From Methanohalophilus levihalophilus (GTDB lineage: Archaea > Halobacteriota > Methanosarcinia > Methanosarcinales > Methanosarcinaceae): 64,000 bases of DNA. Below are positions 5,443 through 25,621 of this stretch, piece by piece; within the stretch, counting starts at the first letter, position 1; every line of letters begins with the position of its first letter. The position numbers and the translations under genes are program-made. The notes below the pieces were generated by a model, which saw only the letters and a list, made by a program, of their open reading frames with translations, did no database searches and was not told the DNA's origin. The stretch covers positions 310,001 through 374,000 of the forward strand of contig NZ_JAGGLK010000003.1 in assembly GCF_017874375.1 (NCBI RefSeq), in the 5' to 3' direction.

Positions 5443-5583
5443 CTGTATATGGGCCAAATATTTCATTGTCGGCCTGTTGCAAATTGCCAGCATGTCCGGG
5501 CGGTTTCCTACATGGTATGGCCCCCGAATCATGCGAATATGGTTCCCCTTTGTTACACACTAAAAATTAGGAGTGAAAGGAAA

Positions 5584-7074
5584 ATGAAAGAACACTACTA
5601 TCCAGGACAGAGTCCTCTGGACGGTGTCGAGCTTAACTTGTTCTCACAGGACGATTTAAGAGCAATACACTACGCCACAATGGAGGTCTTCCAGAACCCA
5701 GGTATGCAGGTTTCCGACGCAGAAGCAAGGCAGATCTTCAAGGATGCTGGCTGTGACGTTGATGAGAAAACACAGGTTGTCAAAATCCCTGAATACCTTG
5801 TAAACAGGGCTCTTCGTGACTGCCCATCAAGCTTCTATCTCCACGCACGTGACAAGAAGCAGGATGTAAAACAGTCCCACAAAGGAAAAGTAAACTGGAC
5901 CTGTTTCGGTACTGGTGTCAAGATGTGCAACTATGAGGCACCTGGCGTATTCAAGACCGTAGATTCAGTTGAAGAAGATGTTGCAGCAACCGCAAAACTC
6001 TGTGACTGGGCAGACAATATTGACTACTACTCCCTCGCAGTTTCCGCAAGGGACTGGGCAGGCAAGGGTGCACAGGATGTTCACGAAACACTCACACCTA
6101 TGATGAACACAACCAAACACTTCCACCACATCGACCCTGTCGAGGAAAGTGTCCAGTACTACAGAGACCTTATCGTAGCTTACTATGGTGGCGACGAAGA
6201 AATGGCACAGAAGAGACCAACCATGTCTATCCTTCTCTGCCCAACCAGCCCACTTGAACTCAGTGTCAACGCATGTCAGGTCATCATTAAGGGTGCACGC
6301 TTTGGTATCCCAGTAAACGTCCTGAGTATGGCAATGTCCGGTGGTTCATCACCTGTATTCCGTGCAGGTACCCTCGTTACACACAACGCAGAAGTACTCG
6401 CAGGTATCGTACTCGCACAGCTCACCGTACCAGGTACAAAAGTACTCTATGGTAGCTCAACCACAACCTTCGACCTGAAGAGGGGTACTGCTCCAGTCGG
6501 TGCACCAGAACTTGGTTTGATCAGTGCAGCAGTCGGTAAACTCGCACAGTTCTACGGTCTTCCATCATTCGTAGCAGGTTCATAGGCAGATGCCAAGGTC
6601 CCAGACGGACAGGCTGGCCACGAGAAGACAATGACCACACTCCTTCCAGCATTTGCAGGATGTAACTCCCTGTACGGTGCAGGTATGCTCGAGCTCGGTA
6701 TGACCTTCTCACTTGAACAGTTGGTAATTGACAACGATATCATTGAGATGACAAAGTCCGCAATGCGCGGTATCCCTGTCAACGATCTCACCCTTGGTGT
6801 CGAGTCCATCCAGAAAGTAGGTATTGGAAACAACTTCCTTGCACACAAGCAGACCAGGGAATACATCGGTGTTGTATCCGATCCAAAGCTCATCGACAGA
6901 ATGATGTTCGGTGACTGGGAAGCTGCAGGTTCCAAGGACATCGCAACAGCTGCACACGAAGTTGTTGTTGACGTATTCAAGAACCACGAAGTCAAGCCAA
7001 TCGATGCTGACATCCTCAAGGACATGAAGGCTGTCGTAGACAGAGCTGACGAAGAAGTCAGGGCTTCAATGTAA
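5584..7074 (+). CDS. mttB: Trimethylamine methyltransferase with in-frame amber (pyrrolysine) codon
   Basis: MttB transfers a methyl group from trimethylamine to the Co(I) corrinoid of MttC. The frame is broken by TAG at 6583-6585 (context VAGS-TAG-ADAKVPD) and resumes with the MttB C-terminal part ([15 protein letters not shown]), ending at TAA 7074. Counted from ATG 5584 the amber is residue 334, the pyrrolysine position known for this family, and the protein has 496 residues. The start is supported by AGGAGTGAAAGG just upstream and by homology beginning at about residue 10 ([11 protein letters not shown]). Codon use is strongly biased, as in highly expressed genes. mttC follows after 25 bases. 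The pyl genes needed for decoding lie outside the window. Confidence 0.97.
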
Positions 7075-7099: not shown

Positions 7100-7747
7100 A
7101 TGGTTACTCAAGAAGAATTAAACGAGAAAGGAAAAGCCGCAGTTATGGATTTCGACGACGAAGCAGTTGTTGAAGTCGCAGAAGAATGCATTTCCGCAGG
7201 TCTTGATCCTGTATCACTCATTCAGGATGGTTACACTGCAGGTATGAACGAAATCGGTGACCAGTTTGAGCAGGGCACACTCTTCCTGCCACACGTTATC
7301 GCCGCATCCGAAGCAATGAGCGCAGGTGTCGAAGTACTCACCCCTGAACTCGAGAAAGCAGCAGCAGAAACCGAAAACAAGGGCACAATCGCAATCGGTA
7401 CAATCGAAGGTGACATTCACACCATCGGTAAGGACATCGTTGCAACCATGCTCAAGATCGCAGGTTTCAAAGTTGTCGACCTCGGAAGGGACGTCGCTAT
7501 TGCAGACTATGTACAGGCTGCTAAAGACGGTGCTGACATTGTCGGTTCCTCTGCACTCATGACCACCACAATGGTTCTCCAGACCCAGGTCGAAGAACAG
7601 CTCAAGGAAGCTGGCGTACGCGACAAGGTCATGACCATGGTCGGCGGTGCACCTGTCACCCAGGACTGGGCAGACAAGATCGGCGCAGACATCTACGGTG
7701 AGAACTCCGCAGATGTAATCGTCAAATGTAAGGCAGCTCTCGAATAA
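7100..7747 (+). CDS. mttC: Trimethylamine corrinoid protein
   Basis: Carries the cobamide that accepts methyl groups from MttB and passes them to the CoM methylase. The 215 residues consist of an N-terminal helical cap domain (about 1-90) and a B12-binding Rossmann domain. The corrinoid-ligating motif DxHxxG is seen as EGDIHTIGKDI near residue 113, followed by the GSSALMTTT and VGGAPV segments. CAGGAG lies before ATG 7100. It is co-transcribed with mttB and followed by a hairpin that may end or process the message. Confidence 0.96.
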   Translation: MVTQEELNEKGKAAVMDFDDEAVVEVAEECISAGLDPVSLIQDGYTAGMNEIGDQFEQGTLFLPHVIAASEAMSAGVEVLTPELEKAAAETENKGTIAIGTIEGDIHTIGKDIVATMLKIAGFKVVDLGRDVAIADYVQAAKDGADIVGSSALMTTTMVLQTQVEEQLKEAGVRDKVMTMVGGAPVTQDWADKIGADIYGENSADVIVKCKAALE

Positions 7748-7761
7748 GTTTGTCTTACAGG

Positions 7762-7783
7762 GATGTATCCTCAGGGATACATC
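7762..7783 (+). terminator. Hairpin after mttC
   Basis: GATGTATCC (7762-7770), loop TCAG, GGATACATC (7775-7783): a perfect 9-base-pair stem 14 bases after the mttC stop. The run after it is C/T-rich rather than a pure T tract, so it could be an mRNA-stabilising 3' end as well as a terminator. A second short stem follows at 7805-7820 (GGTTGT/ACAACC). Confidence 0.55.
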
Positions 7784-7830
7784 TCCCATTTCATTATTTC
7801 AGCTGGTTGTTGTTACAACCCGAAATGATG

Positions 7831-7840
7831 GTTTATATAC
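7831..7840 (+). promoter_or_regulatory. TATA-like box upstream of mttP
   Basis: GTTTATATAC lies about 100 bases before the mttP start and after the mttC hairpin, so mttP may have its own promoter. Confidence 0.4.
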
Positions 7841-7938
7841 GCCTCTAATATCTATACAACATCTCTAAAAACAAATTGTATTTGTTTCAACTATAAATTC
7901 TTGTAAATTGAGGAAATGAACTGGAGGAGGAATATTCT

Positions 7939-8988
7939 TTGGATGTTCAGGAATTAAGAAAATTAGAACTTAAGAGGAAAGTTAACAAAGGTTATATGTG
8001 GGCTTTCTTCTGTGCAGTACTTTGGGGTCTCTGGTATATCCCAGGTACAATCATTTGGGCACTCCCACCTTTTGACTCAATGTGGGTAAACATTGATGCA
8101 TCAAATGGTGCAAGTGCAGCTACAGTAGTAACAGCTTTATTGATTTCAGCTTTCAATGCATTGACCGTTATCCTTGCATTGCTTGTCTGGAACGGTGTGC
8201 TTGGTAAATTCGGCGAAATGAAGAGAACCCTTAAGGCCTTCCACCCATGCAGCAAATGGTTCTTTGCAGCATCTATCTTTGGTGGTCCTATTGCAATTCT
8301 GGGTTCATTTATTGCGATCGGCTTTGTAGGTCCTGCTTTTGGAGCAGTCGCAGCATTGTTGTACCCTGTAACTGGTTCTATTCTCGCATATCTCTGGTAT
8401 GGTGAGAAAATTACCAAGAGGGCAGCAGTCGGTATCTTCGTCATCATGATTGGTGGTATTACCATCTTCGTAGGTGGCGCACTCACAGAACTTAGCGCAG
8501 GCAGTATTGCCTGGGTAGGATATATCGGTGGTCTTATGGCTGCTGTTGGCTGGGGTGTTGAAGGTGCAATTGCAGGTAAGGGTTTGGATATTGCAGAGCC
8601 TGACGTGGGTATTACACTCAGGTTCCTTGGTGAGAACCTTATCTACTGGGTAATTCTCATACCAATCGTTGTTGTGGCTATGGGTATCCCTATGTTCTCC
8701 TATGCAATCGAAGCGCTTAACCCAATGGCAATTCTGGTTCTTGCTTTCGCAGGTATCACATTCGGTTTCTGTTACGTTTCCTGGTACAAGTCTTTCCCAC
8801 TGATTGGTGTAGGACGTGGACAGGGTGTAGCAAATCTGTATGGTCTTTGTGCTGTTATCTTTATCTACCTCTTCTTCGGCAGTGTACCGGAGTGGACGAT
8901 CTGGGTAGGAGCAGCTCTTTGTATTACCGGTAGTTTCATCATGTTCTTTGAAGAAGCCGGTGAAATCGAATCTCTGAGAGGTGACTAA
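7939..8988 (+). CDS. mttP: Probable trimethylamine permease
   Basis: 349 residues with about ten hydrophobic segments, resembling the drug/metabolite transporter superfamily (for example residues 17-36, 55-80, 110-135, 160-180 and several in the second half). The start is TTG 7939 preceded by GGAGGAGG. Its position directly after mttBC matches the mttP genes of Methanosarcina methylamine clusters, annotated there as trimethylamine permease. The substrate is inferred from that context. The stop overlaps the start region of the next gene. Confidence 0.82.
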   Translation: MDVQELRKLELKRKVNKGYMWAFFCAVLWGLWYIPGTIIWALPPFDSMWVNIDASNGASAATVVTALLISAFNALTVILALLVWNGVLGKFGEMKRTLKAFHPCSKWFFAASIFGGPIAILGSFIAIGFVGPAFGAVAALLYPVTGSILAYLWYGEKITKRAAVGIFVIMIGGITIFVGGALTELSAGSIAWVGYIGGLMAAVGWGVEGAIAGKGLDIAEPDVGITLRFLGENLIYWVILIPIVVVAMGIPMFSYAIEALNPMAILVLAFAGITFGFCYVSWYKSFPLIGVGRGQGVANLYGLCAVIFIYLFFGSVPEWTIWVGAALCITGSFIMFFEEAGEIESLRGD

Positions 8989-10272: not shown

Positions 10273-11676
10273 ATGGCAACAGAATACATGCTCAGGATGG
10301 GTGACGGTGAAAAGATCTTCATGACAAAGGAAGACATCCTCGCTGACATCCAGGAAGGTAGCGCTGACGCAGCAGACCTTGCAGAAGTTCCAGCACTTAC
10401 CGATGACGAAATGGACAAGATGCTGTCCATTATTATCAACCCTAACAGGATTGTAGGTGTCGAGCCAGGCAAAGAAGTTCCAATGACCCACGACATTGGT
10501 TCCATCAGGATTGATGGTGACCAGGGTAACAGTGGTGTTGGTATCCCATCCAGCCGTCTTGTCGGCTGTCAGATGCACGAGAGAGCCTTTGGTGCAGACA
10601 CAATGGAACTTGGTCACATTGACTACAGTTACAAACCCGTCAAACCTGTTATTGCACAGGAACAGCAGACAATGGAAGTTTGCCAGATGAACATGGTAAT
10701 TCCTCTGCTCTACGGTGCAATGCCAAACCTTGGTCTTTACTACACCCCTGATGGTCCTTTCGAGAACCCAGGCGACCTCATGAAAGCATTCAAAATAGCA
10801 GAAGCCCGTGAATCCATCGAGAAAGCAGGCGACCATGCAACCCGTGACATCACATGGGTCATGCAGCGTCTCCAGGCTGTTGGTTGTGACGGTGTCAACT
10901 TTGACACAATCGGCGCAGCTGGTGATGGTGACTTCTACGCATCCCTCTACGCAATCAAGGCACTCAGGGAAGAATTCCCTGGTATCTACATCGAAGCCGG
11001 TATGGCTGGTGAATGTACCCTTGGTATGCACGGAGAACTCGAATACGAAGGTAATGTTCTTGCAGGTCTCTGGCCACATGAGCAGGTCCCACTCGCAGAA
11101 GAAGCTGGTGCAAACGTGTTCGGTCCTGTCTGCAACACCAACACAAGCAAATCCGCCGCATGGAACCTTGCACGTGCAGTAACCTTTACAAAAGCAGCAG
11201 TCGAGGCAGCCAACATTCCATGTCACGTTGATATGGGTATGGGTGTCGGTGGTATCCCAATGTATGAGACTCCACCAATCGATGCAGTAACCCGTGCAAG
11301 CAAGGCAATGGTAGAGATTGCCGGCGTTGACGGTATATAGATCGGAGTCGGCGACCCACTCGGTATGCCGATTGCACACATCATGGCATCCGGTCTTACC
11401 GGTATGCGCGCAGCTGGTGACCTTGTTGCCAGGATGCAGTTCGACAGCAGCATGCGCATTGGCGAAGCTAAGGATTACGTTTCTAAGAAGATCGGTGTTG
11501 ACGTAGCAGATCTTGCCAACGAGCACGTCATGAGAGAAGTTCGTGAAGAACTCGACATTGGTATCATTACCTCTGTCCCAGGCTGTGCAAAGGGTATCGC
11601 TGCCAAGATGAACATCGAGAAAGTTCTTGACATCGAAATCAACAGCTGCCAGAAATTCAGGGAAACTACCCAGTAA
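10273..11676 (+). CDS. mtbB: Dimethylamine methyltransferase with in-frame amber (pyrrolysine) codon
   Basis: MtbB moves a methyl group from dimethylamine to MtbC. The frame contains TAG at 11338-11340 (context [18 protein letters not shown]) and continues to TAA 11676. From ATG 10273 the amber is residue 356 of 467, the known pyrrolysine position and length of the family. Typical segments are [33 protein letters not shown] and [12 protein letters not shown]. It starts 22 bases after mtbC with AGGTGAT upstream. The very biased codon use leaves a long artificial reading frame on the opposite strand. Confidence 0.97.
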
Positions 11677-14212: not shown

Positions 14213-16063
14213 ATGGATGAAACAATGGTTACATCATTATATTTTATGGAAATAATTGTTCTTTTGCTTTTATTGAGTTTGATGGCTTATACCTTAAGTA
14301 AATCATTTCATATCCCGATTATTGTATTTCTCCTTCTAGAAGGAATTATTGCCGGCCCAGAAATATTGAACATGCTGGATCCAAATGTTTTTGGTGATGG
14401 CCTAACAGTTATTGTATCACTTTCTGTGGCTATAATTGTTTTTGATGGCGGGTTGCACATTGATTTGAGGCATATCAGGACAGTCCAGCAAAGTGTTTTA
14501 CGACTTATATCTGTAGGAGTATTGATTACATTTATTTTGACGACTTTTGTCACGCACGTATTGTTAGGTGTTCCACTTGCATTAGCAGCCCTTTTTGGTG
14601 CTTTAATCTCAGCGACAGGTCCTACTGTTATAACCCCTATGGTCAAACAGGTTCGTCCTAACCACAAAGTTAGTAAGGTTCTTGAATTAGAGGGTGTTTT
14701 AAATGATGCAGGTAGCGTTATACTTGCAGCACTTATTTTTGAATGGATTGTTTCCCAGTTGTCGGGTTTTGAAGTAGTTTCCTTCATCATTTTCAGAATT
14801 TTTATAGGTGTTTTATTTGGAGTTTCCAGTGGTTTCCTTCTAAGTAGATTTTTGTCAATGGAATCTCTTATCAGTGATCAAACGACCAGGATCGTTACCA
14901 TAACAATGGTACTTGCAACTTTTGTAATCGCAGAAATTTTCGGCAACGAATCAGGCATTATGGCAGTAGCTATTTTTGGTATATATGTGGGAAGTTCTAA
15001 TGTTCCTAATAAACCTGTAATAAAAGAGTTTAAAGCAGATATTGTTATCATTTTATTGTCTTTCATTTTTTTGATACTGGCATCAATGTTGAGATTTGAA
15101 GATGTGGCTAATATTGGTTTCAAAGGTTTTGCTATTGTGTTCCTTCTAATGTTTTTCATCCGCCCAATAGCTGTATTCATTTCTACTTTTAAATCAAAAT
15201 TGTCTCTGAACGATAAATTGTTCATTTCATTTACTGGCCCAAGAGGTATTGTCCCGGCTTCTATAGCTACTTATTTTACGATAAAGCTCAATAATATGGG
15301 TATTATTGGCGGCGAATTCCTGGTAGGGCTTGTATTTTTAGCTGTTATAATTACAGTTGTAACAACTGGATTTTTATCTAAAAGAGTAGCTAAATTTTTA
15401 GGAGTGATCCCAATGGAAATACTTGTCATAGGTGGAGGAGAAGTAGGAGCAATCCTTGCTGAGAGGTTTGAGAAAAGAGGGGAGAATGTTATTGTTGTAG
15501 ACTCCTCTGAGGAAAACTGTTCAAAATTGATAAAATCTGATATCAGGGCAATTCATGGTGATGCTGAGGATGTTAAAGTCCTGAAAGAAGCAGGCATCGA
15601 AAATGCCAAATATGTTGTTGCTACGACAGATCAGGATAATACAAACCTTCTTGTGGCTCAGATTGCAAAAACCAAGTTTGGTTTTAAGGAAGATCAAATT
15701 GTTGCAAGGGTCAACAATATAGAAAATCTCCACGCCTTCTGGGATCTCGGTATACGCTCAATGAGTCCTGCTATGACAACTGCCCTTGTACTGGATAATA
15801 TGGTAGGAAGACCTCACATGTTTTCCATGTGTGAAGTGGGAGAAGGTGCTGATATTCTTGAAGTGCGCGTAAGCAATCCAAAAGTTTCCGGCAAGTCTAT
15901 AAAAGAACTAAAGCTTCCTGAAAATAGTCTTCTGCTCATGGTTAGGAGAGGCGAGCAGTCCTTTATTGCTAACGGCAACATAGTTCTTGAGTATGATGAC
16001 ATTGTCACGGTCATTGGGGAAGGTGGTGCTGCTCAGCAGATATCACAAATGTTTGAAAGGTAA
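14213..16063 (+). CDS. Cation/proton antiporter (CPA1-type) with TrkA-N and TrkA-C domains
   Basis: 616 residues. About twelve hydrophobic helices fill residues 8-395, with conserved stretches GALISATGPTVITP and the acidic EGVLNDAGSVI of NhaP/KefB-like exchangers. A RCK module follows: a Rossmann TrkA-N domain beginning EILVIGGGEVGAILAERF near residue 400 and a TrkA-C domain at the end. It probably exchanges Na+ or K+ for H+ under nucleotide control. ATG 14213 is the chosen start; ATG 14225 is also possible. The soluble-domain fusion parallels the APC-USP gene before it. Confidence 0.85.
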   Translation: MDETMVTSLYFMEIIVLLLLLSLMAYTLSKSFHIPIIVFLLLEGIIAGPEILNMLDPNVFGDGLTVIVSLSVAIIVFDGGLHIDLRHIRTVQQSVLRLISVGVLITFILTTFVTHVLLGVPLALAALFGALISATGPTVITPMVKQVRPNHKVSKVLELEGVLNDAGSVILAALIFEWIVSQLSGFEVVSFIIFRIFIGVLFGVSSGFLLSRFLSMESLISDQTTRIVTITMVLATFVIAEIFGNESGIMAVAIFGIYVGSSNVPNKPVIKEFKADIVIILLSFIFLILASMLRFEDVANIGFKGFAIVFLLMFFIRPIAVFISTFKSKLSLNDKLFISFTGPRGIVPASIATYFTIKLNNMGIIGGEFLVGLVFLAVIITVVTTGFLSKRVAKFLGVIPMEILVIGGGEVGAILAERFEKRGENVIVVDSSEENCSKLIKSDIRAIHGDAEDVKVLKEAGIENAKYVVATTDQDNTNLLVAQIAKTKFGFKEDQIVARVNNIENLHAFWDLGIRSMSPAMTTALVLDNMVGRPHMFSMCEVGEGADILEVRVSNPKVSGKSIKELKLPENSLLLMVRRGEQSFIANGNIVLEYDDIVTVIGEGGAAQQISQMFER

Positions 16064-16170: not shown

Positions 16171-17400
16171 ATGGAAAGAATTGTTAAAGAGATTCAGGAT
16201 AGCTTTGAGCAGCTTGGAATTTCGATTCCGGCTGAGCAAATTGAAGAGCGTCTGGACAAACTGCTTACTAAGTTCAAAGTGCCGGAAGACGAGGCGCGTA
16301 GAACCGTAATTAACTATTTCTCAAAGGAACATGGTGTGGGAAAAGAGCAACTTTTCAAGAAACGCACCTCTGAACCGTCTCAAGTGGGTGACATAACCGG
16401 TTCGGGCCAGTGGCTGAATCTCCGTGTAAAAGTTCTGCAATTATGGGATAATACTAACGAATCTATTTCCCAGGTTGGTCTTATCGGGGATGAGACCGGC
16501 AGTGTAAAGTTCATTAAATGGGCTCGTGACTCGCTTCCAGATCTTGAAGAAGGCAAATCATACCAGCTCAATAATGTTGTAACCAATGAGTGGAATGGGC
16601 GTTTTGAAATAACCCTCAATAAGACCACAAGTGTTGAAGCAATTTCAGAAGATGTAGAAGTCTCTTCTTCATCACCAACAACTGATGTTACCATCGGGGA
16701 AATCAGTGAAGCCGGGCAATGGGTGAATATCTCTGCAAAGGTCATACAGATATGGGATAATACTAACGAATCAATTTCCCAGGTTGGAATTATCGGGGAT
16801 GAATCCGGCAGTGTAAAATTCATTAAATGGGCTCGTGACACGCTTCCAGATCTTGAAGAAGGCAAATCTTATCGTTTTAACAATCTTGTGGTGAGTGAAT
16901 GGAATGGTCGCTTTGAGGTTGGGTTAAATCGAACCAGCAGCATTGAACCTCTTTCCGAGGATATTGAAATCGGACCGACTTCTTTCACCGCTGCAATGGT
17001 GGGTATCCAGGAAGGTTCCGGTTTAATTAAACGTTGTCCGGAATGCAATCGCGCCCTGACAAAAGGCGCCTGTATGGATCATGGCAAAGTGGAAGGCAAC
17101 TATGACTTACGAATAAAGGCAATTCTTGATGATGGCGCCCGTGTTCAGGACGTATTAATCGGAAGAGATTTGTCCGAACAAATGGTTGGTTTAAGCCTGG
17201 AAGAGGCCATAAGTCTTGCAGCAGATGAGCTTGATCAGAGTGTTGTTTTAACCCGTATGAGGGCAGAACTTGTTGGGAAATATTACAGCGTTGATGGCTC
17301 TCCCACAGAGAGATATTTGCTGGCTGATACGGTAAAACCGGTTTCAGATCTTGATATGTCGATTGTAGATGAACTTATAAGCGAGTTGGAGGTGGAGTAA
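16171..17400 (+). CDS. Replication protein A-like single-stranded DNA-binding protein
   Basis: Binds single-stranded DNA in replication and repair. From ATG 16171 (GGAGGTCTGAGGT upstream) it has 409 residues. An N-terminal helical part (about 1-75) is followed by two OB folds that are nearly copies of each other (LQLWDNTNESISQVGLIGDE and IQIWDNTNESISQVGIIGDE, 103 residues apart), and a C-terminal OB-like domain with a zinc-finger pattern CPEC...C..H. The two OB folds are also very similar at DNA level, including silent positions, which suggests recent duplication or gene conversion. The next gene starts directly after the stop. Confidence 0.9.
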   Translation: MERIVKEIQDSFEQLGISIPAEQIEERLDKLLTKFKVPEDEARRTVINYFSKEHGVGKEQLFKKRTSEPSQVGDITGSGQWLNLRVKVLQLWDNTNESISQVGLIGDETGSVKFIKWARDSLPDLEEGKSYQLNNVVTNEWNGRFEITLNKTTSVEAISEDVEVSSSSPTTDVTIGEISEAGQWVNISAKVIQIWDNTNESISQVGIIGDESGSVKFIKWARDTLPDLEEGKSYRFNNLVVSEWNGRFEVGLNRTSSIEPLSEDIEIGPTSFTAAMVGIQEGSGLIKRCPECNRALTKGACMDHGKVEGNYDLRIKAILDDGARVQDVLIGRDLSEQMVGLSLEEAISLAADELDQSVVLTRMRAELVGKYYSVDGSPTERYLLADTVKPVSDLDMSIVDELISELEVE

Positions 17401-24497: not shown

Positions 24498-24614
24498 AAA
24501 ATCTGATTGTCCCTAATTACTGCTAAATATGTAAGGTTGATTCGCAGGACGTTATGTCAAAAAATTAATTTTGCACAGAAATAATTTATTCTTTCAACCC
24601 ATTTAACAATTTAA

Positions 24615-25490
24615 ATGATTGGAATTTTTAATATAGGCAATATTTTTGATGCAGAAACCAAGATGGGAAACGATGTAGTTTTTAAATCTCTCTTAATAAC
24701 TCTAGTTTTAGCATTTTTATTGTTTATTTTTGAGAATGAGAGCAATTTTCTGAGTCATTTTTCACCAAAAGCTTTCATATATCCTTTTGTTGCAGCAGCG
24801 ATAGTTTTGCATATCACAAAATACAAATCTCTTTCAAAGTTGTATCGAAATTATTTTGTATTGAACAAAATAACTGTTTTTTAGTTAATATCCGAAGTAT
24901 TCGTTGTATCTCTTGCTCTTCCATTGTTGTTACATACTATTAATTTGCATATTTATTACGTCTTTTTTTGGTTATTTGCTTTTTTTGTAGGTGGTTTGCA
25001 TAGGATTATCATTCAGTGTACGCCAGCTCTTTTTGATGCCTATATATCTGAATATATGGATTTAATCCAACTTTATGGATACATAAAGGCTTCATCTCAT
25101 GCTTTTTTGGTTTTGCTACTTGCTAAGGTAATCTTGCTAGTAGATCCTATTTCATTGTGGGAGAATGATTTTAGAACATTTTTTTCAATACTCTTGTTCT
25201 TATTTTTGATGTATTTGAGTTTCAAATTTATTTTTTATTACATCAGTAATCTATATCCATATTTTAATAGGGACACAGAGATCGAAAATACGGTTTTATT
25301 AATACGAAAGGTTGCTGAAAATAAGAGAATCAGCTCGAAGTCATTAATTCATTCTTTTGATCAAGAAATGGAGAGTTTTATAAAAAGAAAGATTGAGACC
25401 TTATTGGAAGGAAATATCTTTTTGGAAGTTGATGGGAAAAAAGTGCTACTTCGTCCTGCTTATCAATACGTGTATGAGCAACTCGAATAA
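24615..25490 (+). CDS. Membrane protein with an in-frame amber codon: candidate pyrrolysine or read-through protein
   Basis: The frame from ATG 24615 reaches TAG at 24882-24884 (codon 90) and then stays open for about 200 more codons to TAA 25490, 291 residues in all if TAG is read. Both halves are hydrophobic with matching character. Two helices precede the amber (residues 24-42 and 53-67). About four follow (near 95-107, 109-126, 152-172, 182-208), and a charged C-terminal region of 75 residues looks helical/winged. The downstream half has no good start of its own: its first start codon is TTG 24924, with a pyrimidine-rich sequence before it and 13 sense codons between it and the TAG. TAG ends no other gene I checked here. 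Alternatives are two separate genes or a nonsense mutation. AT-rich and of no recognised family. Confidence 0.55.
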
Positions 25491-25621
25491 AACATAACTA
25501 TCCTATTGTTAAAATGCATAACCCAACAATTCTTGATTTTCTATCTTTGACAAGGTTCCCAACGGAAAAAACTTAACTTATCCCACATTATTACCGCATA
25601 AGAAATAATCGAGATGATATC

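Follow-up and report, generated by a model that had tools for sequence, protein, structure and literature searches.

The closest described counterpart of the gene considered here is thg1 (tRNA-His guanylyltransferase) of Methanosarcina acetivorans, in which an in-frame UAG was gained neutrally (Heinemann et al. 2009, via PMC2933860); this codon can be translated as pyrrolysine (Pyl), and activity does not need Pyl. Neutral UAG codons in other genes were proposed by a 2013 survey (PMC3639795), whose method could not detect genes whose homologues all lack TAG, and a 2024 review describes in-frame ambers as rare outside methyltransferases (PMC11467909). In the methyltransferases MtmB, MtbB and MttB, TAG sits at a conserved position and Pyl serves in catalysis. 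Furthermore, an archaeal "Pyl code" in which all TAG codons stand for Pyl was reportedly described by Kivenson et al. in Science in 2025.

The frame at 24615-25490 (+) of the window, i.e., the whole stretch of 64,000 nt that was analysed, resembles each of these systems in part. Like thg1, it is an ordinary gene with a species-specific TAG and homologues with a sense codon; thg1, in contrast, was assayed biochemically, whereas the focal membrane-protein gene is known from its sequence and has few homologues. The focal TAG is probably translated as Pyl by the machinery that also serves mtbB and mttB, both present in the window, but unlike theirs it is not conserved. The host resembles the archaeal Pyl code in the rarity of TAG as a terminator and in its many ordinary genes with an in-frame TAG, although about five of the 439 sampled host genes may still end at TAG. 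With homologues that all lack TAG, the focal gene belongs to the class outside the reach of the 2013 method, and it joins the ordinary genes with an in-frame TAG, a kind already known from thg1. The features of the window are as follows.

5581..7074, plus strand: mttB, trimethylamine methyltransferase, with an in-frame TAG at 6583 (TIGR02369, 704 bits)
10273..11676, plus strand: mtbB, dimethylamine methyltransferase, with an in-frame TAG at 11338 (TIGR02368, 864 bits)
24498..25560, plus strand: AT-rich extra segment between a Cgi121-like gene and an FBPase/GlpX-like gene (comparison with congeners)
24615..25490, plus strand: focal membrane-protein gene with a C-terminal winged-helix domain, TAG putatively read as Pyl (homologues span both halves)
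24615-24617 and 25488-25490, plus strand: ATG start and TAA stop of the focal gene
24882..24884, plus strand: codon 90, an in-frame TAG within predicted transmembrane helix 3 (homologue alignment and structure model)
24894..24896, plus strand: codon of Glu94, invariant in all four homologues, between the TAG and TTG 24924 (alignment)
25275..25478, plus strand: predicted C-terminal winged helix-turn-helix, residues 221-288 (AlphaFold2 pLDDT 80-87 over most of it)

The focal gene occupies one 291-codon frame whose only interruption is the TAG, in agreement with the description given in the earlier note. Because an in-frame TAA (24612-24614) directly abuts the ATG on its 5' side, the frame cannot begin farther upstream; no obvious ribosome-binding site was seen upstream of this ATG. 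The approximately 200 coding-like codons previously reported beyond the TAG are also confirmed: 201 codons are open (chance p ~4e-7 at the local stop rate of 7.0% per codon), and an open run of that length arose in 0 of 20,000 simulations of the intergene under a first-order Markov model. Chance is excluded as the origin of the post-TAG open frame. The host coding-score method overlooked the gene, presumably because of its odd composition.

Three homologues (L002, L003 and L007) were recovered from as many other family genomes, two by a search of relatives (25-32% identity) and the third with a profile built from those two; the former label of orphan is therefore nearly, but not wholly, correct. 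None is a close homologue (24-27% identity). Each is a single frame of 302-347 aa with no internal stop and aligns with the focal protein end to end across the amber site, which is flanked on both sides by invariant residues. The codons of the homologues at this site are ATA (Ile), TTA (Leu) and TAC (Tyr), so the conserved TAG position of functional Pyl proteins of the MtmB/MtbB/MttB type is not found. Homology and coding run unbroken across the TAG in one frame, as for a Pyl-decoded codon, and the combination of a lineage-private TAG, sense codons in the homologues and an otherwise intact frame is that of a neutral Pyl gene of the thg1 type. Judging from the alignment, 24615-25490 is one gene, not two. 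The homologue at L002 1459-2370, in the PylS-bearing genome G034, has TAG as its own end.

AlphaFold2, run on the four-row alignment, returned a modest model (mean pLDDT 64, pTM 0.63) consisting of a bundle of membrane helices followed by a winged helix-turn-helix at 221-288. Residue 90 falls within helix 85-107, the third hydrophobic helix, near whose start the amber had been placed from the letters alone, and the C-terminal domain, then described as charged, can be refined to a winged helix-turn-helix on the basis of AlphaFold2, Foldseek and an HTH_45 match in homologue L007 (20.2 bits, below the curated cut-off of 25.5). In the Foldseek comparison, this domain resembles MarR-type regulators over 64-66 residues with a probability of up to 0.97 and E above 1. 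Whole-protein Foldseek matches (E > 0.3) were dismissed as meaningless, and the PADLOC matches of the homologues (CARF-TM, PDC-S27) were set aside as weak and confined to the winged helix. Pfam, NCBIfam, PHROGs and PADLOC gave no family for the focal protein. The model suggests a membrane-tethered DNA-binding or regulatory protein as the likeliest role.

The gene is present in 4 of the 112 genomes of the family, the focal one included, and searches of 186 genomes of the order and of 393 genomes sampled evenly across the phylum found no further full-length homologue. Plasmid and viral collections gave no homologues, and two scans of genome contigs returned one, already found by the genome search. 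No congener carries the gene; the focal ORF is missing at the junction of the Cgi121-like and FBPase/GlpX-like genes in 7/7 congeners. No repeats flanking the inserted segment were found. The GC content of the ORF (29.6% vs 43% for the window) would fit an accessory gene of acquired origin. Read by eye, the neighbours of the homologues include cas1-like and UvrD-like genes in one case and restriction-like and HEPN/nucleotidyltransferase-like genes in another, which suggests accessory islands without a fixed partner gene.

The host genome holds a complete set for Pyl decoding: a tRNA-Pyl with anticodon CTA (CUA), found by ARAGORN on contig C2, and PylS, PylB, PylC and PylD, each above the NCBIfam curated cut-off, with the pyl cluster on the same contig. 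The PF21360 profile, a wrong probe, gave no PylC, although the NCBIfam model finds it. In the window, mtbB and mttB reach full length only with TAG read. The use of TAG was followed over 464 kb (a 400 kb sample plus the window, 22% of the genome) with 439 called genes. TAG ends 13 of these genes (3.0%), and 8 of the 13 apparent ends run on as coding, in 7 genes: mtbB, mttB and the following five.

L025:15208-17616, minus strand: PEP synthase, full length; TAG 16264-16266 is codon 451 and falls within the PEP-utilizers (mobile) domain
L036:8356-9507, plus strand: geranylgeranyl-reductase-family (FAD-binding) protein with one in-frame TAG, codon 106 (Pfam domain spans the TAG)
L033:190-999, minus strand: TPD-domain protein with one in-frame TAG, codon 160 (Pfam domain spans the TAG)
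L021:777-1973, plus strand: TSP3-repeat protein with one in-frame TAG, codon 169 (Pfam domain spans the TAG)
L036:15440-17038, minus strand: integrase-like gene interrupted in frame by TAG twice, at 16796-16798 and 16010-16012 (no match to a Pfam family)

With its TAG read, PEP synthase scores 1178 bits across the whole length of TIGR01418; an annotation would show it as a pseudogene or in two pieces. The TAG of the TPD gene occurs only in the host species: it is absent in the 107 other family genomes with the gene (108 in total), and at this site the nearest congener, 76% identical, uses a sense codon. Across the 464 kb, neither TAA nor TGA turned up within a gene. Among stops between strongly coding stretches, 6/7 TAG are intragenic vs 0/52 TAA/TGA (all boundary-like on reading), as judged by eye from context, because simply counting the coding-like stretches that follow stops also scores same-frame adjacent genes. 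In the window, a mechanical ORF search gives three frames ending in TAG, of which one is the N-terminal part of mttB and two are antisense, and the coding-score method calls TAG ends for mttB and mtbB alone, in each case for the N-terminal part; the two lists agree with the earlier observation that no real gene of the window ends in TAG. As read from these genes, TAG is a working sense codon in the host, and the earlier assertion that the cell must decode it is upheld both by them and by the complete Pyl cassette. Extrapolation from 8 genes in 464 kb, or from 5 in the 400 kb sample alone, gives ~25-40 per genome; the host has perhaps 25-40 genes with an in-frame TAG, among which the focal gene holds no special status as a new pyrrolysine protein.

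Collectively, the most probable explanation (about 0.8) is a single intact gene whose UAG at codon 90 is decoded as Pyl, the TAG being a near-neutral point mutation. The codon would be read by tRNA-Pyl(CUA), which PylS loads with pyrrolysine synthesised by PylBCD, giving a 291-residue membrane protein with a C-terminal winged helix and Pyl at position 90. The TAG would have arisen from a hydrophobic codon by point mutation, in an accessory gene absent in the congeners, and would persist because Pyl decoding renders the mutation near-neutral. The Pyl side chain is a lysine acylated on its epsilon-nitrogen and uncharged; a transmembrane helix could accommodate it close to its beginning. Since TAG is a working sense codon in the host, a full-length Pyl-containing product is likely to be made, and Pyl at 90 is most likely tolerated there without having a function. 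The designation "new pyrrolysine protein" in the earlier note is thus retained for the probable presence of Pyl, given the Pyl system and the sense use of TAG, and dropped for a functional, selected Pyl, in view of the sense codons of the homologues. Their uninterrupted frames, with a sense codon at 90, instead bear out the alternative raised there, a nonsense mutation tolerated through Pyl.

It would be very surprising if the locus comprised two genes, an 89-codon one stopping at the TAG and a downstream one. TTG 24924, the sole alternative start nearby, does open a 188-codon ORF, but no credible ribosome-binding site was seen for it, and the homologues contradict a split: none of the three exists as two separate halves. 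Moreover, the invariant Glu94 lies four codons past the TAG and precedes this TTG, which indicates that coding runs straight across the TAG. An early pseudogene is unlikely, though less so; in that case the TAG would abolish, or nearly abolish, the function of a foreign gene that the host does not need, and little if any full-length protein would result. A recently inactivated gene that carries one nonsense mutation would present the same picture, this is a rare AT-rich accessory gene in no congener, and the coding-score model of the host overlooks it. Amber readthrough can also be partial: for an introduced amber codon in M. acetivorans it was only about 20-30% (PMC2933860), so that, by analogy, an 89-residue truncated product may predominate here. 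Decay is opposed by the 291 codons without a second disabling change and by the retained conserved motifs; furthermore, the in-gene stops found in the genome are all TAG, which random decay would not give, and PEP synthase and other genes show TAG readthrough.

A functional or regulatory Pyl is quite improbable. Residue 90 could itself do a job, or, an equally doubtful proposal, the TAG could be a methylamine-dependent switch, giving a short two-helix fragment in the absence of methylamines and the membrane-tethered winged-helix protein when Pyl is available. Pyl supply is substrate-dependent in the bacterium Acetohalobium arabaticum (PMC11467909), and truncation would uncouple the winged-helix domain. 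A functional Pyl is nevertheless unsupported, because the homologues have I, L or Y in place of a conserved TAG, the congeners lack the gene and the parallel TAG of the TPD gene is private to the host species; scattered TAGs in unrelated housekeeping genes also argue against it. The switch, if true, would mean that the Pyl system regulates a non-methyltransferase gene.

With near-neutral Pyl decoding as the preferred reading, the focal gene itself is a modest case, and its genomic setting is useful. Given that TAG lies within PEP synthase and other housekeeping-type genes and is nearly gone as a terminator, standard annotation will split or miss perhaps a few dozen genes. The host genome is a good test of the extent of UAG reassignment in methylotrophic methanogens and of whether Pyl in ordinary proteins is neutral.

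Among relatives, TAG ends 1.2-2.9% of the genes in five PylS-bearing genomes vs 14.3% in one without PylS (Fisher p = 6e-7 for the host genome vs the latter). In the relative without PylS, every TAG before a long coding-score frame looked like a gene boundary; the PylS-bearing relatives, like the host, carry in-gene TAGs in ordinary genes. These lie at L083 1634 and L087 729 (G002), L045 11433 (G007), L060 18718 and L064 11712 (G009), and L070 2625 (G017), and the types recognised by eye are a trypsin-like protease, an acetyltransferase, an MFS transporter, FrhB-like and subtilase-like proteins and a transposase.

Some TAGs, e.g., that of pylB, probably still act as stops in the host. Five of its 13 apparent TAG ends, pylB among them, reach another stop within 1-39 codons, and tails after TAG are not clearly shorter than those after TAA/TGA (p = 0.07). 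The pylB gene ends at TAG (L029:11243-11245, minus strand), with pylC starting two bases downstream. It also ends at TAG in congener G002 (L088 near 19363, plus strand), and readthrough would add 39 codons in both species. Termination of pylB with TAG is described for several Methanosarcinaceae, and M. acetivorans pylB with the TAG changed to TAA is functional (PMC2933860). Two provirus-like genes ending in TAG (L031:781-1674 and 7617-7997, plus strand) have the next stop 5 and 1 codons on, respectively. At L098 11049 (G013), a hemA-like gene ends in TAG and a hemB-like gene follows in the same frame a few codons on; readthrough would fuse the two, so that either this TAG stops translation or a fusion is made.
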